A stretch of 64,000 bases of DNA from Prevotella sp. (GTDB lineage: Bacteria > Bacteroidota > Bacteroidia > Bacteroidales > Bacteroidaceae): assembly GCA_017623655.1 (NCBI GenBank), contig JAGAON010000009.1:186001-250000 (forward strand). The letters run 5' to 3'. Shown piece by piece: positions 1 through 43,496 of this stretch; positions within the stretch are counted from its first letter, which is position 1; each line of letters begins with the position of its first letter. Made by a program: the position numbers and the translations under genes. The notes beneath the pieces are model-generated. The model worked only from the letters and a program-made list of their open reading frames with translations. It was not told the DNA's origin and did not search any database.

Positions 1-421
1 AGAAGCATTGCCCCATGCAGTCGCCCTCAGTGATGATTATGGCGTTCTCCTCCGACAGCTGGTTGAGATTTGCGAAGGTGGGGCCGAACATCGGGTGCGT
101 GCTTACATAGCGGTGTCCCGTGGTCTCATAAAACTCTTTCAGTCCGGTCTTTACCGACGCAATGTCGCTCAATATGCACTCTTCGCCAAGGAAAGGCAGT
201 ACCTCGTTGAAGGCGGGGATGGTGTATTTCACCGTCGCAGCGTTTATGACGAGTTCCGGTTTGAACGCCCTTACCTCTTCAAGGTCGGTGAAACGCTGGC
301 AGTTGTAGGTGAACCTCATGCGCCTCGCGTCCTTTTCATATACCCCGACTTCATGGTCAAAGCTGAGCAGGTCGATGAAGAACGAACCCATCTTACCCGC
401 TCCGAGAACCAATATCTTCAT
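1..421 (-). CDS. tyrA: Prephenate dehydrogenase, C-terminus beyond window edge
   Basis: This is the N-terminal 140 residues of an NAD(P)-dependent prephenate dehydrogenase, which makes 4-hydroxyphenylpyruvate for tyrosine. The start ATG is at 419-421 and the frame stays open to base 1. It opens with MKILVLGAGKMG, the GxGxxG nucleotide-binding loop of a Rossmann fold. It then shows the family motifs DIASVK (about residue 93) and STHPMFGP (about residue 115), the latter carrying the catalytic histidine region. It lies 12 bases after the DAHP synthase/chorismate mutase gene and is the fourth gene of the aromatic operon. It should share control by the leader-peptide attenuator upstream of pheA. 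The C-terminal dimerisation half is not visible. Confidence 0.9.
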   Translation of the reverse strand, partial: MKILVLGAGKMGSFFIDLLSFDHEVGVYEKDARRMRFTYNCQRFTDLEEVRAFKPELVINAATVKYTIPAFNEVLPFLGEECILSDIASVKTGLKEFYETTGHRYVSTHPMFGPTFANLNQLSEENAIIITEGDCMGQCF

Positions 422-433
422 TTTCTTGCGGTC

Positions 434-1498
434 TTATTTGTTTATAATCTCCAGCTGCTGGCGTACTGATTCCTCATGTATCGCCTCGAAAACGGTCTTC
501 ACAAACTGCTCGCTCATGCCGCAAAGTGCACCCTGTGCGCCGCGTTTGTCAAGTATCTCGTTGTATCGTCCGGTTTGCAACACGGTCATGTTGTGCTCCT
601 TTTTGTACTGGCCTATCTCCCGGCAGACGCGGAAACGCTGTGAGAGCAGGTCCAGAAGCTTGTCGTCCTGTTCGTCTATCTGCTTGCGGAGCATCTGTAT
701 GTTCTCTGTTGTGGTAGTCTCGTCACGCACTTGCAGTAATGTGAGTATGTAGTCCAGCACGTCCGGTGTCACCTGTTGCTTGGCGTCACTCCATGCGCAG
801 TCCGGGTTACAATGGCTCTCGACAATCAGTCCGTCGGCGCCAAGGTCCATGGCCTGCTGGCACAATGGCGCGATAAGCTCGCGCCTTCCGCCTATGTGGC
901 TGGGGTCACACACGATGGGAAGGTTAGGTATTCGTCTGCGCAACTCAATCGGAATCTGCCACATCGGGAGGTTACGGTAAATCTTTTTGTCGTAAGACGA
1001 GAAGCCGCGGTGTATCGCTCCCAGCTTCTTCACGCCTGCAAGGTTTATGCGTTCCAGCGCTCCTATCCACAGTTCAAGGTCGGGGTTCACCGGATTCTTC
1101 ACGAGAACGGGAATCTCTATGCCCTTCATCGCGTCGGCAATTTCCTGCATCGCGAACGGGTTTGCCGATGTACGGGCGCCTATCCACATCAGGTCGATGC
1201 CGTATTTCATGGCGAGCTCCACGTGGTCGGGTGTCGCCACCTCGGTACACATCATCATTCCCGTCTCCTTCTTGGCCTCAGCCATCCATTTCAGGGCCGG
1301 TTCTCCGTTACCCTCAAAGCCTCCCGGCTTTGTGCGCGGCTTCCATACGCCGGCGCGGAACATGTGGCATCCTTTCTGCGCAAGCTGTCTTGCGGTTGTC
1401 ATTACCTGTTCTTCCGTCTCTGCGGAGCAAGGTCCCGCTATCACGAACGGGCGTTTGTTGTCACTGGGAAGGTTCAGTGCTTCAAGTTCTAATTCCAT
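434..1498 (-). CDS. Bifunctional DAHP synthase / chorismate mutase
   Basis: A 354-residue fusion enzyme for the first step of the shikimate pathway (phosphoenolpyruvate plus erythrose 4-phosphate to DAHP) and for conversion of chorismate to prephenate. Residues 1-255 are a class I DAHP synthase barrel: the IAGPCSAE motif is at about 20, the KPRTKPGGFEG substrate loop at about 53, and IHRGFSSY and CDPSHIGG follow. Residues 258-354 form an AroQ-type helical chorismate mutase (RKQIDEQDDKLLDLLSQR). The fusion order, synthase then mutase, is common in Bacteroidetes. The mutase domain may act as the feedback sensor, as in related fusions. It sits 32 bases after the aminotransferase and 12 bases before tyrA. 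Confidence 0.93.
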   Translation of the reverse strand: MELELEALNLPSDNKRPFVIAGPCSAETEEQVMTTARQLAQKGCHMFRAGVWKPRTKPGGFEGNGEPALKWMAEAKKETGMMMCTEVATPDHVELAMKYGIDLMWIGARTSANPFAMQEIADAMKGIEIPVLVKNPVNPDLELWIGALERINLAGVKKLGAIHRGFSSYDKKIYRNLPMWQIPIELRRRIPNLPIVCDPSHIGGRRELIAPLCQQAMDLGADGLIVESHCNPDCAWSDAKQQVTPDVLDYILTLLQVRDETTTTENIQMLRKQIDEQDDKLLDLLSQRFRVCREIGQYKKEHNMTVLQTGRYNEILDKRGAQGALCGMSEQFVKTVFEAIHEESVRQQLEIINK

Positions 1499-1530: not shown

Positions 1531-2703
1531 TTATTTGTTCATCATTCCCTCTATTCTCGCCAGGGCTTCCTTCATTTTCTCGTCCTTGGCGCACAGTGAT
1601 ATGCGTATATACCTTTCGCCGTTGCTTCCGAATATCATTCCCGGAGTAATGAACACACGCGCCTCGTGCAGTACCTTCTCCGTCAGATCCTCAACCGTAT
1701 TATAGCTGTCAGGTATCTTTCCCCACAGGAACATGCCTACGGAGTCCTTGTCATATTTACAGTCCAGCACGTCCATTATCCGCTCCGCTATCACCCGGCG
1801 GCGCTTGTAGTTGTCGTAATTGTTCTCCCTGTGCCATCCGTCCTCGTTGTGGTAAGCCTCCGCAGCGGCCAGTTGTATGCCGCGGAAGGTACCTGAGTCG
1901 ATGTTGGACTTTATCTTAAGAATCCAGGAAATGAACGTGCTGTTGGTAGCGACCATGCCCACTCGCCATCCCGGCATATTGTGGCTCTTCGACATTGAGT
2001 TAAACTCTATGCAGCAATCTTTCGCTCCCGGCACCTGCAACAGTGACATCGGGTTATCGTTTATGATGAAAGAGTAGGGATTATCGTTCACCACCACGAT
2101 GTTATGTTCCTGTGCGAACCTCACCAACCGCTCGTAAGTCTCCCGTCGCGCGTTGCCGCCTGTCGGCATATTAGGGTAGTTTGTCCACATAATCTTGACC
2201 TTGCTGAGGTCCATTTGCTCCAAAGCCTCGAAGTCAGGCTGCCATCCGTTGTTCTCCATGAGGTCATAGTTCACTATCTTCTGCCCCAGAATCTTTGACA
2301 ATGAGGTGTATGTCGGATAGCCGGGGTTTGGCACCAGCACCTCATCACCGGGGTTACACAGTGCGAGAGTGACGTGCAGTATGGCCTCTTTCGAGCCGAT
2401 CATCGGCTGTATCTCCGTCTTCGGGTCAAGCTCCACGCCGTACCAGCGTTTGTAGAAGTATGCCATGGCCTCGCGCAACTCCGGTGTTCCCACCGTGGGT
2501 TGGTAGCCATGGGCGGACGGATCATGCGCCACTTCGCACAGTTTGTTTACTGTTGCCTCTGACGGAGGCATGTCCGGCGAGCCTATTGCGAGGGATATTA
2601 TGTCCATTCCCTTGGCGTTCAGCTCCGCCACTTCCTTTAATTTACGGCTGAAGTAATACTCCTGCACTGCTGACAGGCGGTCAGCGGGTTTTATGTTTGT
2701 CAT
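1531..2703 (-). CDS. PLP-dependent aminotransferase, probably aromatic
   Basis: A 390-residue class I/II fold-type I aminotransferase. The PLP lysine is visible in SMSKSHNMPGWRVG (about residue 239), the PLP-contacting NYPNMPTGG at about 174, and a C-terminal arginine region YIRISLC at about 369. The family transfers amino groups between aromatic or aspartate amino acids and 2-oxoglutarate. Position between pheA and the DAHP synthase/chorismate mutase gene makes the last transamination to phenylalanine and tyrosine the likely job, though the sequence alone does not fix the substrate. A 111-base gap to pheA holds a C/G-rich inverted repeat (CCCCCTTCCGGCTCCCCCGA) of the kind scattered in Bacteroidetes intergenic DNA. 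Confidence 0.85.
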   Translation of the reverse strand: MTNIKPADRLSAVQEYYFSRKLKEVAELNAKGMDIISLAIGSPDMPPSEATVNKLCEVAHDPSAHGYQPTVGTPELREAMAYFYKRWYGVELDPKTEIQPMIGSKEAILHVTLALCNPGDEVLVPNPGYPTYTSLSKILGQKIVNYDLMENNGWQPDFEALEQMDLSKVKIMWTNYPNMPTGGNARRETYERLVRFAQEHNIVVVNDNPYSFIINDNPMSLLQVPGAKDCCIEFNSMSKSHNMPGWRVGMVATNSTFISWILKIKSNIDSGTFRGIQLAAAEAYHNEDGWHRENNYDNYKRRRVIAERIMDVLDCKYDKDSVGMFLWGKIPDSYNTVEDLTEKVLHEARVFITPGMIFGSNGERYIRISLCAKDEKMKEALARIEGMMNK

Positions 2704-2814: not shown

Positions 2815-3645
2815 TCATGCCGATTTGTATTCGCCGAGAATGAGCAGGTCCTTGGTCAGAGGCATGATGGCATCTATGCTTTGCCGGTATCGTGTCAGGT
2901 CGTCATACGTCACATCTACATAGAAGAGGTACTCCCATTCCCTGCCGATAATCGGCAGAGACTGTATCTTCGTCAGGTTAATCTTGTAGAAAGACAGTAT
3001 TGACAGCACCTGCGACAGCGAGCCTTCCTCATGCGGCAGCGAGAAAACGATGCTCGACTTGTCCGACTCGTTGAGTGCTCTCAGGAAGTCAGCCTTACGC
3101 GGGTCTGACATGATGAGGAAGCGTGTGTAGTTGTGCGGGTTGTCCTCCACGTGGTTTTCCAGCACCTCCAGCCCGTAAAGTTCGGCCGCATCTGCATGGC
3201 AAAGGGCCGCCACGCCGTGCAGTTTGTTCTCTGCTATGCGCTTGGCGGAGCCTGCCGTGTCCTCATCCTCCACCATTTTCAGGTTGGGATGCTTTGACAG
3301 GTATTTGCAGCACTGCGCCAATGCCACGGGATGTGAATGCACCTCTCTCAGGTCTTCCAGCTTCTGTCCCGGCAGGCAGCAGATGCAGTGGCTTATGTGG
3401 GTCTTGTGCTCGCCGACGACAGTCATTCCCGACTCCCTGAGCAACTCGTAGTTGTGAAGCAAAGAACCCGCTATCGTGTTCTCTATCGCCATGATGCCGA
3501 TGATGGTAGGGTCCTGTTTCATGTGCCCGAACACCTCCTCGAATGTGGAGCAGCATATAATCTGCAACTGTTCACCCTCGAAATAGTGGTGCGCTGTGAT
3601 GTCATGGAAAGACCCTATCTCACCTTGTATAGCTATTCTCTTCAT
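2815..3645 (-). CDS. pheA: Prephenate dehydratase with ACT domain
   Basis: A 276-residue monofunctional prephenate dehydratase that makes phenylpyruvate. Residues 1-185 form the catalytic domain, with the conserved N-terminal IQGEIGSFHD, ENTIAGSL at about 55 and the catalytic TRF motif (NYTRFLIM) at about 172. Residues 195-270 are an ACT domain. Its two phenylalanine-binding motifs differ from the usual GALV and ESRP: here they read GSLS and QSLP, so feedback inhibition by Phe may be altered; this is an inference. It is the first structural gene of the operon, and its 5' leader carries a Phe/Tyr leader peptide and a terminator hairpin ending about 50 bases before the start. Confidence 0.93.
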   Translation of the reverse strand: MKRIAIQGEIGSFHDITAHHYFEGEQLQIICCSTFEEVFGHMKQDPTIIGIMAIENTIAGSLLHNYELLRESGMTVVGEHKTHISHCICCLPGQKLEDLREVHSHPVALAQCCKYLSKHPNLKMVEDEDTAGSAKRIAENKLHGVAALCHADAAELYGLEVLENHVEDNPHNYTRFLIMSDPRKADFLRALNESDKSSIVFSLPHEEGSLSQVLSILSFYKINLTKIQSLPIIGREWEYLFYVDVTYDDLTRYRQSIDAIMPLTKDLLILGEYKSA

Positions 3646-3683
3646 CTTTTTGCGTGTATATATTATATATTAATGTGTTGTTG

Positions 3684-3727
3684 GCGTATAAAACAAAAGT
3701 CCCGTGTAGTATTCTACGCGGGACTTT
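3684..3727 (-). terminator. Attenuator terminator hairpin of the pheA operon
   Basis: Read on the minus strand, bases 3727 to 3696 form a 14-bp stem (AAAGTCCCGCGTAG / CTACACGGGACTTT) with one G-U pair and a 4-base loop, followed by TTTTGTTTTAT. This is a textbook intrinsic terminator, yet it sits between the leader peptide (stop at 3768) and pheA (start at 3645), so it would cut off the operon. The 5' arm TCCCGC can pair instead with GCGGGA inside codons 21-22 of the leader peptide, giving a competing antiterminator. Confidence 0.85.
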
Positions 3728-3767
3728 GCATTTATCATTTTATTGCTGATAGTCTTTAAGTTGAAAT

Positions 3768-3845
3768 TTACACGCAACTTCCCGCTTCACAGTCTTCTGC
3801 AAAGTAAAAGTAAAAATAAAAGAAAGATGCGTATGAATTGTTCAT
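3768..3845 (-). CDS. Phe/Tyr-rich leader peptide controlling the pheA operon
   Basis: A 25-codon ORF, too short for usual gene calling, starts at ATG 3845 and stops at TAA 3768. Codons 8-15 encode FFYFYFYF without interruption; with Tyr5 there are five Phe and four Tyr codons out of 25. It lies about 37 bases after the predicted transcription start and 40 bases before the terminator hairpin. A ribosome stalled in codons 8-15 would leave codons 21-22 (GCG GGA) free to pair with the terminator's 5' arm. A ribosome reaching the stop codon would cover them and let the terminator form. The operon makes both Phe and Tyr, matching the mixed codon run. The architecture is like E. coli pheL; the peptide itself is not homologous. 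Confidence 0.88.
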   Translation of the reverse strand: MNNSYASFFYFYFYFAEDCEAGSCV

Positions 3846-3888
3846 TGTCTTGTTTGTCGCTTTTGGCGTTTTGTTCGTAATTCGTGTG

Positions 3889-3920
3889 CAAAAGTAATGT
3901 TTTTTATCGGAACTCGCAAA
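3889..3920 (-). promoter_or_regulatory. Promoter of the pheA leader and operon
   Basis: On the minus strand TTTG (3920-3917) is followed after exactly 20 bases by TACTTTTG (3896-3889), matching the Bacteroidetes -33/-7 consensus. The predicted start near 3882 gives a short 5' end before the leader peptide ATG at 3845. Confidence 0.75.
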
Positions 3921-4092
3921 TTTTTCAGCAAAAAATCGCAAGATGAACGAAAAAAAGTTGCGTTTGGCATGATGATATTATACACATAATATATGTACTT
4001 GTTTATGGCTTTGCCTTGATAATAAGCACGGAATATTGTCGTACAACAGTGAGAGAGCCGTACGCCTCCTGACGGACTATGTTTATAAACGG

Positions 4093-4290
4093 ACGTTGTA
4101 GGGACGCACCTTGGTGCGTCCGCCGATACTGGAAAAACGGTGAAACGGACGCACCAAGGTACGTCCCTACAAGACGTTGCTATTCAAGGTATTACAAAAG
4201 CCGTTGCAAAAGGGTGCTGTTTACACTGCAAACAGGTGCTGATTACAACGTAAAAGGGTGCTGATTGCAACGTAATCAGCACCCTTTTAC
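4093..4290. repeat. Composite intergenic repeat, copy 1
   Basis: Two modules lie side by side. Bases 4096-4122 and 4146-4172 are 27-bp inverted copies (one mismatch) around GGACGCACCTTGGTGCGTCC, which is itself a palindrome. Bases 4208-4273 are three 22-bp direct units (AAAAGGGTGCTGATTACAACGT type), closed by an inverted part-unit to 4290. The same composite recurs at six other places in the window. The flanking DNA between the pheA promoter and the pgk terminator shows no gene. Confidence 0.85.
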
Positions 4291-4415
4291 ATTAACCTCG
4301 GTAACGCATTTAATTGCAAAGAATGTCCCTACAACGGGTTTGCAAATCATCGTGGCGGGACATTAATGACGTGTCTGCTTCGTCTCTCCCCACGCTGTAC
4401 GCCGGCAAACAAATG

Positions 4416-4453
4416 AAAATCCCCTGCCATGAGGTTGCTCACGTCAGGGGATT
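4416..4453 (-). terminator. Intrinsic terminator of pgk
   Basis: On the minus strand AATCCCCTG and CAGGGGATT form a 9-bp stem with partial inner pairing, followed by TTTCATTT. It lies 29 bases after the pgk stop codon. Confidence 0.75.
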
Positions 4454-4481
4454 GTTATATTTAATATTGTATCGTCAGGCA

Positions 4482-5729
4482 TTACTCACCCTTAACGGCA
4501 GCCACACCCGGGAGCACCTTGCCCTCGATAGCCTCGAGAAGCGCACCGCCGCCGGTAGAGATGTATGACACCTTGTCGGCAAGACCGAACTTGTTTACAC
4601 AAGCAACGGAGTCACCGCCGCCGATGAGAGAGAACGCACCCTCGGCCGTTGCCTCGGCGATTGCGTTGCCGATAGCGCGTGAACCGCCGCAGAAGTTGTC
4701 GAACTCGAACACGCCGGCAGGACCGTTCCAGAGGATGGTCTTGCAGCCCTTGATGGCCTCGGCAAACTTCTTCTGAGCCTCAGGACCTGCGTCAAGTCCT
4801 TCCCAACCCTCCGGTATGGCGTTAGACGGAGCGACCTTCTGGTTGGCATCGTTGGAGAATGCGTCAGCGATGACGGCATCCGGAGCCATGACGAGTTCCA
4901 CACCGTTCTTCTTTGCAAGTTCCTCAACGCCGAGAGCGACGTCGAGTTTGTCGTCCTCGCAGATGGACTGGCCGATCTGTCCGCCGTGAGCCTTGGCGAA
5001 AGTATATGTCATGCCGCCGCAGAGGATGAGCTTATCAACCTTGCCGAGGAGGTTCTCGATGATGCCGATCTTTGATGATACCTTTGAGCCTCCCATGATA
5101 GCGATGAACGGACGCTTGATGTTGCCGAGCACGTTGTCAACGGCCTGCACCTCCTTCTCCATGAGAAGGCCGAGCATCTTGTTGTCAGCGTCGAAGTAGT
5201 CAGCGATGACGGCGGTAGAGGCGTGCTTGCGGTGAGCTGTTCCGAAAGCGTCCATCACCCAGCAGTCAGCGTAAGAAGCGAGTTTCTTGGCAAACTCCTT
5301 CTGTGACGCCTTCATGGCCTTCTTGGCCTCGTCGTACTCAGGTGTGCCCTTTTCCACGCCTACCGGCTTGCCTTCTTCCTCCGGATAGTAACGCAGGTTC
5401 TCAAGCAAAAGCACCTCACCCGGTTTCAGAGCCGCAGCCTCAGCGTCAGCCTTCTGACAGTCGGAGACGAACTTCACGGGTGTGCCGAGAGCCGCTGACA
5501 CCGCGTCAACAATCTGACCGAGGGAAAGCTCAGGCTTAACCTTGCCCTTCGGCTTGCCCATGTGGGACATGATGATGAGCGAACCGCCCTTCTCAAGAAT
5601 GAGCTTAAGGGTAGGAAGGGCACCCTTGATGCGGGTGTCGTCAGTAATCTTGCCATCCTGAAGAGGCACGTTGAAATCTACGCGAACGATGGCTTTCTTG
5701 CCAGCAAAATTGTAATCGTTGATCTTCAT
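4482..5729 (-). CDS. pgk: Phosphoglycerate kinase
   Basis: A 415-residue cytoplasmic glycolytic enzyme converting 1,3-bisphosphoglycerate and ADP to 3-phosphoglycerate and ATP. Visible signatures are [12 protein letters not shown] (about residue 16), SHMGKPKG (about 55), [11 protein letters not shown] (about 160), [10 protein letters not shown] (about 210) and the nucleotide-binding [13 protein letters not shown] near the C-terminus. Length and motifs are normal. It is a single-gene unit: a terminator follows it, and kdsC upstream is divergent. A -7-like TAACTTTG (5789-5782 on the minus strand) precedes it, but no good -33 box stands at the proper distance. Confidence 0.97.
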
Positions 5730-9562: not shown

Positions 9563-9801
9563 GTTGTAGGGACGCACGTTGGTGCGTCCGCCGATACCGT
9601 AAACGCGATGATTCGGACGCGCCCGCTCGGCTTGGCCGCTTGCCATAGGCTTTATGCCGGCGGCACCAAGGCGCGTCCCTACAAGGCGTTGAAAATCAAG
9701 GCATAACAAAAGCCTCCGCAAAAGGGTGCTGATTGCATTGTAAAAGGGTGCTGATTACACAGTGATCAGGTGCTGATTACAGTGTAATCAGCACCCTTTT
9801 G
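9563..9801. repeat. Composite intergenic repeat, copy 2
   Basis: The inverted-repeat module (9563-9690) has its second arm interrupted by about 45 bp (CCGCTCGGCTTGGCCGCTTG... to ...GCCGGCGGCACC, about 9622-9667). The tandem module holds 22-bp units at 9720-9741, 9742-9763 and 9764-9785, plus an inverted part-unit to 9801. It lies between the convergent BASS transporter and yraN genes. The rest of this 418-base gap holds only the yraN terminator. Confidence 0.85.
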
Positions 9802-15935: not shown

Positions 15936-16172
15936 AAACAGGTGCTGATTACCGTGTAATCAGCACCTGTTTGCGTTATAATCAGCACCAGATTACAATG
16001 TAATCAGCACCCTTTTGCAACGGCTTTTGTTATGCCTTGATTTCCAATCCGTTGTAGGGACGCACCTTCTTGCCGCCGGCATAAAGCCTATGGCAAGCGG
16101 CCAAGCCGAGCGGGTGCGTCCGAATCATCGGCCTTTCACACACCGGCGGACGCACCAAAGGGCGTCCCTACA
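15936..16172. repeat. Composite intergenic repeat, copy 3, reversed
   Basis: The whole composite is inverted relative to copies 1, 2, 5 and 6. Four 22-bp units stand at 15936-15957 (direct) and 15958-15979, 15980-16001 and 16002-16023 (inverted). The inverted-repeat module follows at 16051-16172, with the 45-bp insert at about 16066-16111. It fills the gap between the convergent truA and GH28-GH105 genes. Confidence 0.85.
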
Positions 16173-22411: not shown

Positions 22412-22499
22412 AATATGCGGCTGATTACACAGCAAACAGGTGCTGATTACAACGTAAAAGGGTGCTGATTGCAGTGTAATCAGCACCCTTTTATAACGT
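22412..22499. repeat. 22-bp tandem repeat, copy 4 (no inverted-repeat module)
   Basis: A decayed unit (22412-22433), two direct units (22434-22455, 22456-22477) and one inverted unit (22478-22499). The 5' neighbouring module present elsewhere is missing, replaced by unrelated DNA. It lies upstream of the pheT promoter. Confidence 0.8.
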
Positions 22500-28359: not shown

Positions 28360-28603
28360 TGTAGGGACGCACCTTGGTGCGTCCGCCTATGCCGGGAAAT
28401 GCGGGGATTCGGACGCACCCGCTCGGCTTTGCCGCTTGCCATAGGCTTTATGCCGGCGGCAAGAAGGTGCGTCCCTACAAGGCATCGTAACGGCACGCCA
28501 TACTACCCGCAAAACAAAAGGGTGCTGATTACCCGGTAAACAGGTGCTGATTACAATGTAAAAGGGTGCTGATTGCGATGTAATCAGGTGCTGATTGCGG
28601 AGG
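28360..28603. repeat. Composite intergenic repeat, copy 5
   Basis: The inverted-repeat module spans 28360-28480 with the 45-bp insert at about 28420-28463. Four direct 22-bp units follow at 28516-28537, 28538-28559, 28560-28581 and 28582-28603, here without the inverted closing unit. Confidence 0.85.
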
Positions 28604-28653: not shown

Positions 28654-28961
28654 GACGTAATAAGCCCTGAAAGGGCGGAATATTAAAGCCCGGGGTGAAA
28701 ACCCCGGGGAAATAACGGACATACGAAAGCAGTATCGGAACCCCGTAGCCGACAGGCGAGGAGCACAAAGTGCGACGAGGGGTGATAACAACTATCGATG
28801 TCCACAATACGTTTCAGAGGATGCACAAAACACCCCTCGGTGTCCTGCGGACACCTCGCCTACCAACTTTGGGGTGCCAATACGTTTTCGATGTCAAACC
28901 TCCAATCCCCGGGGTTTGCACCCCGTGCTATGATATGTCGCCCTTTCAGGGCTTTATACGA
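28654..28961. mobile_element. MITE-like palindromic element, no transposase
   Basis: About 310 bp bounded by imperfect terminal inverted repeats of some 55 bp: both ends carry AAGCCCTGAAAGGGCG and, inside it, a CCCGGGGT...ACCCCGGGG stem. The interior contains further inverted pairs, CGAGGGGTG (28776-28784) with CACCCCTCG (28831-28839) and GGCGAGG with CCTCGCC. No ORF of note is inside. It lies between repeat copy 5 and the SGNH hydrolase gene. Confidence 0.6.
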
Positions 28962-34158: not shown

Positions 34159-34420
34159 GTTGTATGGACGCACCTTGGTGCGTCCGCCGATACGGATGAA
34201 TATATCCGCCATTGTGGGGAACGCGGCGATTCGGATGCACCCGCTCGGCTTGGCCGCTTGCCATAGGCTTTATGCCGGCGGCAAGAAGGTGCGTCCCTAC
34301 AAGACGTTGCGGTTCAAGGTATTACGAATGGCGCTGCAAAAGGGTGCTGATTACCGTGTGAACAGGTGCTGATTACACAGTAAAAGGGTGCTGATTGCAA
34401 CGTAATCAGCACCCTTTTAC
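34159..34420. repeat. Composite intergenic repeat, copy 6
   Basis: Inverted-repeat module 34159-34303, with a longer middle than other copies and the 45-bp insert at about 34240-34286. Three direct 22-bp units follow at 34338-34359, 34360-34381 and 34382-34403, closed by the inverted part-unit to 34420. It lies 55 bases after the end of the GH128-like gene. Confidence 0.85.
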
Positions 34421-43408: not shown

Positions 43409-43496
43409 AAAAGGGCGCTGATTGCATTGTAAAAGGCACCAGTTTACAGTGTAATCAGCATCCTTTTACAATGCAATCAGCGCCCTTTTACAGAGG
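43409..43496. repeat. 22-bp tandem repeat, copy 7 (inside the locus)
   Basis: Four 22-bp units: two direct (43409-43430, 43431-43452, the second decayed) and two inverted (43453-43474, 43475-43496). The arrangement can fold into a long hairpin between susD and the glycosidase gene. The inverted-repeat module is absent. Confidence 0.8.

Follow-up and report, generated by a model that had tools for sequence, protein, structure and literature searches.

Sequence evidence for a ribosome-mediated Phe/Tyr attenuator upstream of pheA that is widespread in the class Bacteroidia

A short element upstream of pheA in Prevotella sp. is, with very high probability, a classical ribosome-mediated transcription attenuator of an operon comprising pheA, an aminotransferase gene, a gene for DAHP synthase/chorismate mutase (DAHPS/CM) and tyrA. 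Judged by sequence, this putative attenuator is of a known type and is widespread in the class Bacteroidia. It lies on the minus strand of a 64,000-nucleotide stretch of DNA (the window), as do all features of the operon and leader given below, and it marks a leader gene that the initial annotation had called unannotated.

The operon begins with pheA, which encodes prephenate dehydratase (2815..3645, with its ATG at 3645; Pfam PF00800, E = 7.5e-55). The other members are a class I/II aminotransferase gene (1531..2703; PF00155), the DAHPS/CM gene (434..1498; PF00793 and PF01817) and the start of tyrA, which encodes a prephenate dehydrogenase of 265 aa (1..421; PF02153, E = 2.5e-10); tyrA exceeds the window edge and is seen whole at positions 3624-4421 of locus L196. 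With all four enzymes identified, the earlier proposal that the operon yields both Phe and Tyr is borne out. Upstream of pheA on the same strand is pgk (PF00162, 4482-5729).

The promoter, leader ORF, antiterminator segment and terminator that had been proposed to precede pheA can all be seen in the minus-strand sequence. A TTTG element at -33 (3917..3920) and TACTTTTGC at -7 (3888..3896) form what we take, from the consensus, to be a Bacteroides-type promoter, the -7 element appearing in relatives as TAnn(n)TTTG; a scan for E. coli sigma-70 promoters does not list it. Elsewhere in the genome, a 26-bp stretch (G000:C3:303864-303889) is 92% similar to the promoter portion of the query. The leader ORF (3768..3845) has 25 codons and encodes MNNSYASFFYFYFYFAEDCEAGSCV followed by a stop. 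Translation of 3845-3768 confirmed the codon run FFYFYFYF, at codons 8-15 (3801..3824), and the sequence places GCGGGA at codons 21-22, as described in the initial annotation.

Mutually exclusive RNA structures can be drawn for this region, which folds far better than shuffled sequence (z = -4.84, 0 of 200 shuffles as good). Segment 1 (ACUUUUACUUUGCAG, 3797..3811) is predicted to pair with segment 2 (3772..3792, residues 3792-3777) when no ribosome is present, with a folding energy of -11.3 kcal/mol. Residues 3785-3772 of segment 2 (GCGGGAAGUUGCGU) are also complementary to segment 3 (AUGCAAAGUCCCGC, 3718..3731), the antiterminator partner, which overlaps the 5′ arm of an intrinsic terminator with a U-rich tail (3687..3727; stem 3727-3696, -18.5 kcal/mol). 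The terminator reads AAAGTCCCGCGTAGAATACTACACGGGACTTT (3727-3696) followed by TGTTTTATA. Its existence is confirmed; the length of 14 bp first given for it is not, as the core forms 13 pairs (9 + 4) and contains one C.A mismatch. A simple terminator scan listed no terminator in 3400-4500, probably because of this mismatch. Similarly, the antiterminator is real and its length has to be revised: GCGGGA-AG-UUGCGU (3785-3772) pairs with AUGCAA-AG-UCCCGC (3731-3718) as two 6-bp helices flanking a 2x2 AG/AG loop, with a 2:3 duplex energy of -20.2 kcal/mol. When the complete RNA that starts at segment 2 is folded, the terminator still forms, which counts against the model; antitermination would thus have to be kinetic, as the classical model assumes.

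The arrangement resembles the enteric pheL-pheA attenuator, in which a leader ORF with Phe codons and alternative stems precede a terminator in front of pheA. We infer that ribosome stalling, termination and a response to starvation would be combined here in the same way. With ample Phe-tRNA and Tyr-tRNA, the ribosome would pass the codon run and reach the leader stop codon, where it would cover segment 2, or segment 2 would pair with segment 1; segment 3 would then be free, the 3:4 terminator would form, and transcription would end ahead of pheA. If Phe or Tyr were short, the ribosome would stall within the run and cover segment 1, allowing segment 2, which starts about 10-12 nt past the last Phe/Tyr codon, to pair with segment 3. 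The 2:3 pairing would block the terminator and the operon would be transcribed. The proposal of ribosome-stalling attenuation is supported by the codon run, the terminator, the exclusive antiterminator, a 1:2 protector hairpin and the spacing between them.

Conservation of these parts was assessed in relatives. PheA matches were found in 79 of 100 genomes of the genus, 128 of 151 of the family, 35 of 80 of the order and 27 of 99 of the class. Upstream regions were taken for 78 of the 79 genus matches (a match of 28% identity in G039 was omitted), for the 30 best family matches plus 32 chosen for spread from the list, for 30 of 36 order matches and for all 27 class matches, with some genomes present in more than one draw. 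Three duplicate places and 7 loci (fused chorismate mutase/PheA, partial or distant matches, or loci lacking upstream sequence) were excluded, and the remaining 183 of 193 regions, each at most 500 nt long, were searched for a short ORF in which 8 consecutive codons include 6 or more for Phe/Tyr. Such a leader ORF precedes pheA in 80/83 genus, 48/52 family, 27/27 order and 12/21 class loci, compared with 4, 4, 2 and 1 on the reverse strand and shuffle means of 0.1, 0.25, 0.25 and 0.35, respectively. The comparison of relatives suggested in the initial annotation thus showed the ORF, both alternative stems and the promoter to be conserved, with compensatory changes. Nine of the 21 class loci fail the leader test and 7 of these 9 have an aminotransferase gene beside pheA, which counts against the model.

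Further draws extended the distribution. In a public genome collection, where PheA matched at more than 80 loci, 78 of the best 80 pass the leader test, carriers including Phocaeicola vulgatus ATCC 8482, Paraprevotella xylaniphila and Segatella paludivivens. In a phylum-wide draw 17 of 29 PheA loci pass: among the 22 loci within the class (7 of whose genomes were already in the class sample), 15 pass at 6 of 8 codons and 20 at 5 of 8, and 2 of 7 loci pass outside the class. None of 20 further PheA loci chosen outside the class passes. The two out-of-class carriers (G433 and G480) have PheA scores of 371 and 335 bits, against at most 279 for other out-of-class PheA, a difference that points to transfer or to mis-binned contigs. 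A search pattern built for the element as it occurs in the genus gave one match in each of 56 of the 100 genus genomes, 55 of them before pheA (coordinates compared by eye) and one before the aminotransferase gene of G072. The 21 genomes that lack a PheA match had none, and a reversed control pattern gave none.

A terminator-like hairpin with a T-rich tail was called by our own script, run without a shuffle control, in 149 of 167 leader-bearing loci; several of the 18 negative loci have a hairpin visible by eye. Twelve of the 149 rows had visibly wrong terminator or leader calls and were removed by hand, and the remaining 137 were used for the promoter, spacing and stop-position counts. The -7 element was found in 63/63 genus loci (8.3 expected in shuffles) and the -33 and -7 elements jointly in 56/63 (0.2 expected); the pair was found in only 17/42 family, 9/22 order and 4/10 class loci.

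Spacing between the codon run and the antiterminator was similar at every level, with median distances between the last base of the final Phe/Tyr codon and the start of the 2:3 duplex of 10 nt in the genus, 12 in the family, 11 in the order and 9.5 in the class (63, 42, 22 and 10 loci). A ribosome with a codon in its A site covers roughly this distance, so that a ribosome stalled in the run would leave segment 2 free. The end of the leader stop codon falls between roughly the edge of segment 2 and some tens of nucleotides past the start of that segment, most commonly 20-25 nt past that start in the genus and 0-1 or 23-27 nt past it in the family; a ribosome finishing the leader would therefore mostly cover or pass segment 2.

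If segments 2 and 3 function as a pair, they should fit each other within a locus. In a permutation test, which ignores relatedness, the mean pairing energy of segment 2 with its own terminator arm in the order (n = 26) was -17.74, compared with -11.47 (sd 0.62) for permuted arms, and 0 of 5000 permutations reached the native value. The corresponding means were -20.38 and -18.56 for the genus (0/5000), -19.83 and -17.76 for the family (0/5000), and -16.15 and -12.78 for the class, where 1 of 5000 permutations reached the native value. The small margin in the genus and family is explained by the strong conservation of segment 2 there. A locus's own terminator was the best partner of its segment 2 in 2/69 genus, 2/43 family, 10/26 order and 3/11 class rows, and shuffled segment 2 attained -10 kcal/mol in 52, 44, 22 and 42% of trials, respectively.

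Anchored pair counts, which kept 43/69 genus, 37/43 family, 23/26 order and 9/11 class rows, gave a consistent picture at the order level: 64% of 2:3 cells are paired in the true register versus 27-49% in slid registers, and column k = -1 contains GC 5 times, CG 4, AU 2, UA 2 and UG 1, with 9 unpaired (n = 23). Double changes in 2:3 pairs showed no excess in the genus (3 versus 1-7 in slid registers), where segment 2 hardly varies and little covariation can be counted, and little excess in the family (28 versus 5-23). Counts for 3:4 pairs are biased because the stems were selected as stems, and we offer only the 2:3 counts as evidence. Together, the permutation test and the order-level pair counts support a mutually exclusive antiterminator by covariation.

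The 1:2 protector hairpin is also maintained. Among 78 loci that fit its pattern, 76 pair at the loop-closing position (A-U 46, G-C 26, U-A 2, U-G 2, unpaired 2); by comparison, pairing with the neighbouring base would be possible in 12 of the 78. In this part of the leader, the RNA GUGAAGCGGGAAGUUG is read as CEAGSC(V) in the genus of the window and as VKREVV(C) in other genera, and it lies past an early stop codon in other relatives. Its retention across frames and early stops argues that selection keeps the RNA and not the peptide. This bears on the idea that the leader is an arrest peptide, comparable to TnaC, which responds to Trp, so that the nascent sequence itself would stall the ribosome on free Phe or Tyr rather than codon starvation doing so. 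The C-terminal CEAGSCV is indeed well conserved in the genus, as such a peptide would predict, but in relatives the same region is frame-shifted or truncated by early stops while the RNA is retained; the codon run takes 73 distinct 8-residue forms in 149 leaders (566 F and 523 Y); and its Tyr content tracks the downstream genes, as set out below. We regard an arrest peptide as highly improbable.

A riboswitch, T-box or protein-bound leader that senses Phe or Tyr, with the short ORF incidental, would likewise account for a conserved, structured leader ending in a terminator. However, stem sequences vary across the order whereas the ORF with its codons is retained, and searches with Rfam models found no T-box or riboswitch in the window at Rfam thresholds and none at E <= 10 in 3560-4000. 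This is the least probable of the explanations that we weighed. No Rfam family matched the leader at threshold. Below threshold, the enteric Phe leader (RF01859, Phe_leader) aligned to the same strand and bases as the leader (3842-3688; 17.4 bits, E = 2.4), far short of its gathering threshold of 55 bits. The enteric family resembles the element in its leader ORF with Phe codons, its alternative stems and its terminator before pheA, and differs from it in that the codons here are mixed Phe/Tyr, the operon serves both amino acids and the promoter is of the Bacteroides type.

If ribosome-mediated attenuation is at work, the codons in the run should match the products of the genes behind it. An aminotransferase gene lies directly 3′ of pheA in all 55 genus and family leader loci and all 78 leader loci of named genomes with enough flanking sequence, and beside pheA in 22 of 39 order and class leader loci; in 14 of the other 17 the locus contains DAHPS or prephenate dehydrogenase. 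If any homologue of an aminotransferase, of DAHPS or of TyrA encoded on the same strand within the locus is counted as a Tyr-pathway partner, Tyr occurs in the run of 36/36 order and class leaders with a partner and of 0/3 before a solitary pheA (Fisher p = 1.1e-4 over 39 leaders, relatedness ignored). The view that the mixed codons of the window suit a joint operon gains support from this association. The three Phe-only runs are FTHFFFFF (L145), FFFFAFFF (L150, with two Tyr codons outside the run) and FFFFFFRS (L164), and segment 2 and the terminator are still present by eye at all three loci. Two of the genomes concerned carry, in addition to the Phe-only leader at a solitary pheA, a separate mixed leader at Tyr genes (G276, L150 and L348; G266, L145 and L352), the mixed leaders being MIKNISVFAYFYYYFYFSKK and MNNTFGYYAFYYYFFYNN, each with a terminator. 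In G286, which also has a Phe-only leader at a solitary pheA, the contig begins inside DAHPS. Two genomes run against a simple rule: G338 and G365 have a mixed leader at a pheA that lies beside DAHPS, the matching aminotransferase gene is elsewhere, and no leader was found before that distant gene.

Among the seven genus and family loci with a negative leader test, five (G072, G097, G244, G152 and G171) have pheA apart from the aminotransferase gene; in these genomes a Phe/Tyr leader and terminator precede the aminotransferase gene, with DAHPS/CM in the same locus. In G098 pheA is beside the aminotransferase gene and no element was found; this appears to be the only failing locus in the genus and family that lost the element outright. 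At L082 (G241) the run and terminator are present and the leader ORF continues in frame into pheA without a stop, which may be a leader-PheA fusion or a contig error.

The five displaced leaders also bear on whether the terminator merely ends transcription of pgk, with pheA served by another promoter. The position of pgk, upstream on the same strand, would allow this. However, a hairpin-like sequence read by eye at 4450-4421 already lies 3′ of pgk, a conserved promoter stands ahead of the leader, many genomes have the element ahead of the same aromatic genes, and in those five genomes it precedes the aminotransferase gene while an element-less pheA sits elsewhere. A pgk terminator has very little chance of being the right explanation, and attenuation of the aromatic operon is strongly preferred.

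The initial annotation had also pointed to altered motifs in the ACT domain of PheA (GSLS/QSLP) as a change that could shift control to the RNA. QS.P is found in 110 of 113 PheA loci, and in a second set the altered motifs are present in all 14 loci that fail the leader test. Being shared by nearly all of the PheA sequences compared, they do not speak specially for such a shift, and we attach no weight to them.

Comparison within the genus brought out a further structure, a hairpin of the form AAGUUG-CGUGUAAAUUU-CAACUU (3758..3780) whose loop encloses the leader stop codon. This hairpin is present in 40 of 74 anchored genus loci (41 called, one of them mis-anchored; 74 of 83 loci could be anchored), compared with 8% of shuffles. 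Its arms show compensated changes (TCGTTG/CAACGA in three loci, GAGTTG/CAACTC in one), and by eye it is absent from the group of leaders ending in GRM or GRK. One may picture an ancient Bacteroidia attenuator whose codons were re-tuned with the operon, with Phe and Tyr codons for the joint operon and Phe alone for a solitary pheA, and to which the genus added the stop-codon hairpin as a second checkpoint that, for example, times ribosome release relative to RNA polymerase. We consider this fuller scheme rather unlikely.

Other loci of the same genome were also inspected. No His-rich short leader ORF was found upstream of hisG (L335), so that not every amino-acid operon of this bacterium seems to rely on attenuation; a search for ilvD gave no match in the genome, which is rated 60% complete. 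A 22-bp unit with the core GGTGCTGATTNCAANGTAA occurs upstream of hisG and, within the window, in arrays at seven places (4208-4283, 9725-9796, 15941-16020, 22420-22488, 28521-28596, 34338-34414 and 43414-43493), often with a terminal inverted copy, giving 21 matches in the window versus 0.03 expected. Inverted repeats of the TGTAGGGACGCACC type adjoin five of the six array stretches that were read. Near one of the arrays are two Acido-Lenti-1 matches above the Rfam threshold, at 28663-28708 on the minus strand and at 28908-28953 on the forward strand.

Leader-peptide control has been discussed in this phylum before. A 2010 survey states that before its Firmicutes case no leader-peptide system was known beyond Proteobacteria and Actinobacteria (PMC2965389). 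In Bacteroides thetaiotaomicron, long 5′ UTRs were found to contain short ORFs reminiscent of leader peptides, BT_4401 being an example (PMC7366714); the general idea is the same, and the main text of that paper mentions neither pheA nor phenylalanine. In another paper the portion concerned with leader genes in Bacteroidetes treats them generally, without pheA (PMC4833913). Closest to our case, a 2021 study of Flavobacterium psychrophilum reported strong indications that leader peptides attenuate amino-acid operons, and described a pheA 5′ element that is conserved in other Flavobacteriaceae and has no Rfam hit (PMC9723704). Phylum and gene are those of the window element, and the two are likely identical; the relevant section of the paper gives neither codons nor pairing and does not name pheA as one of the leader-peptide cases. 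According to that section, both leader-peptide attenuation in Bacteroidota and a conserved pheA 5′ element are thus already reported (PMC9723704). For a Phe/Tyr leader in Prevotella or Bacteroidales we found no description in searches of open-access papers; an earlier prediction is possible.

Taken together, the parts of the element and their conservation, the way the pairings co-evolve, the spacing and the match between codons and gene products, all drawn from sequence comparison, trace one leader-peptide system across much of the class Bacteroidia, with codons that match the products of the downstream genes. Classical attenuation needs a ribosome close behind RNA polymerase, and the element would accordingly be a ready reporter of ribosome-RNA polymerase coupling in Bacteroidota. 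For the bacterium itself, the switch probably provides a means of turning on the synthesis of Phe and Tyr when either runs short.
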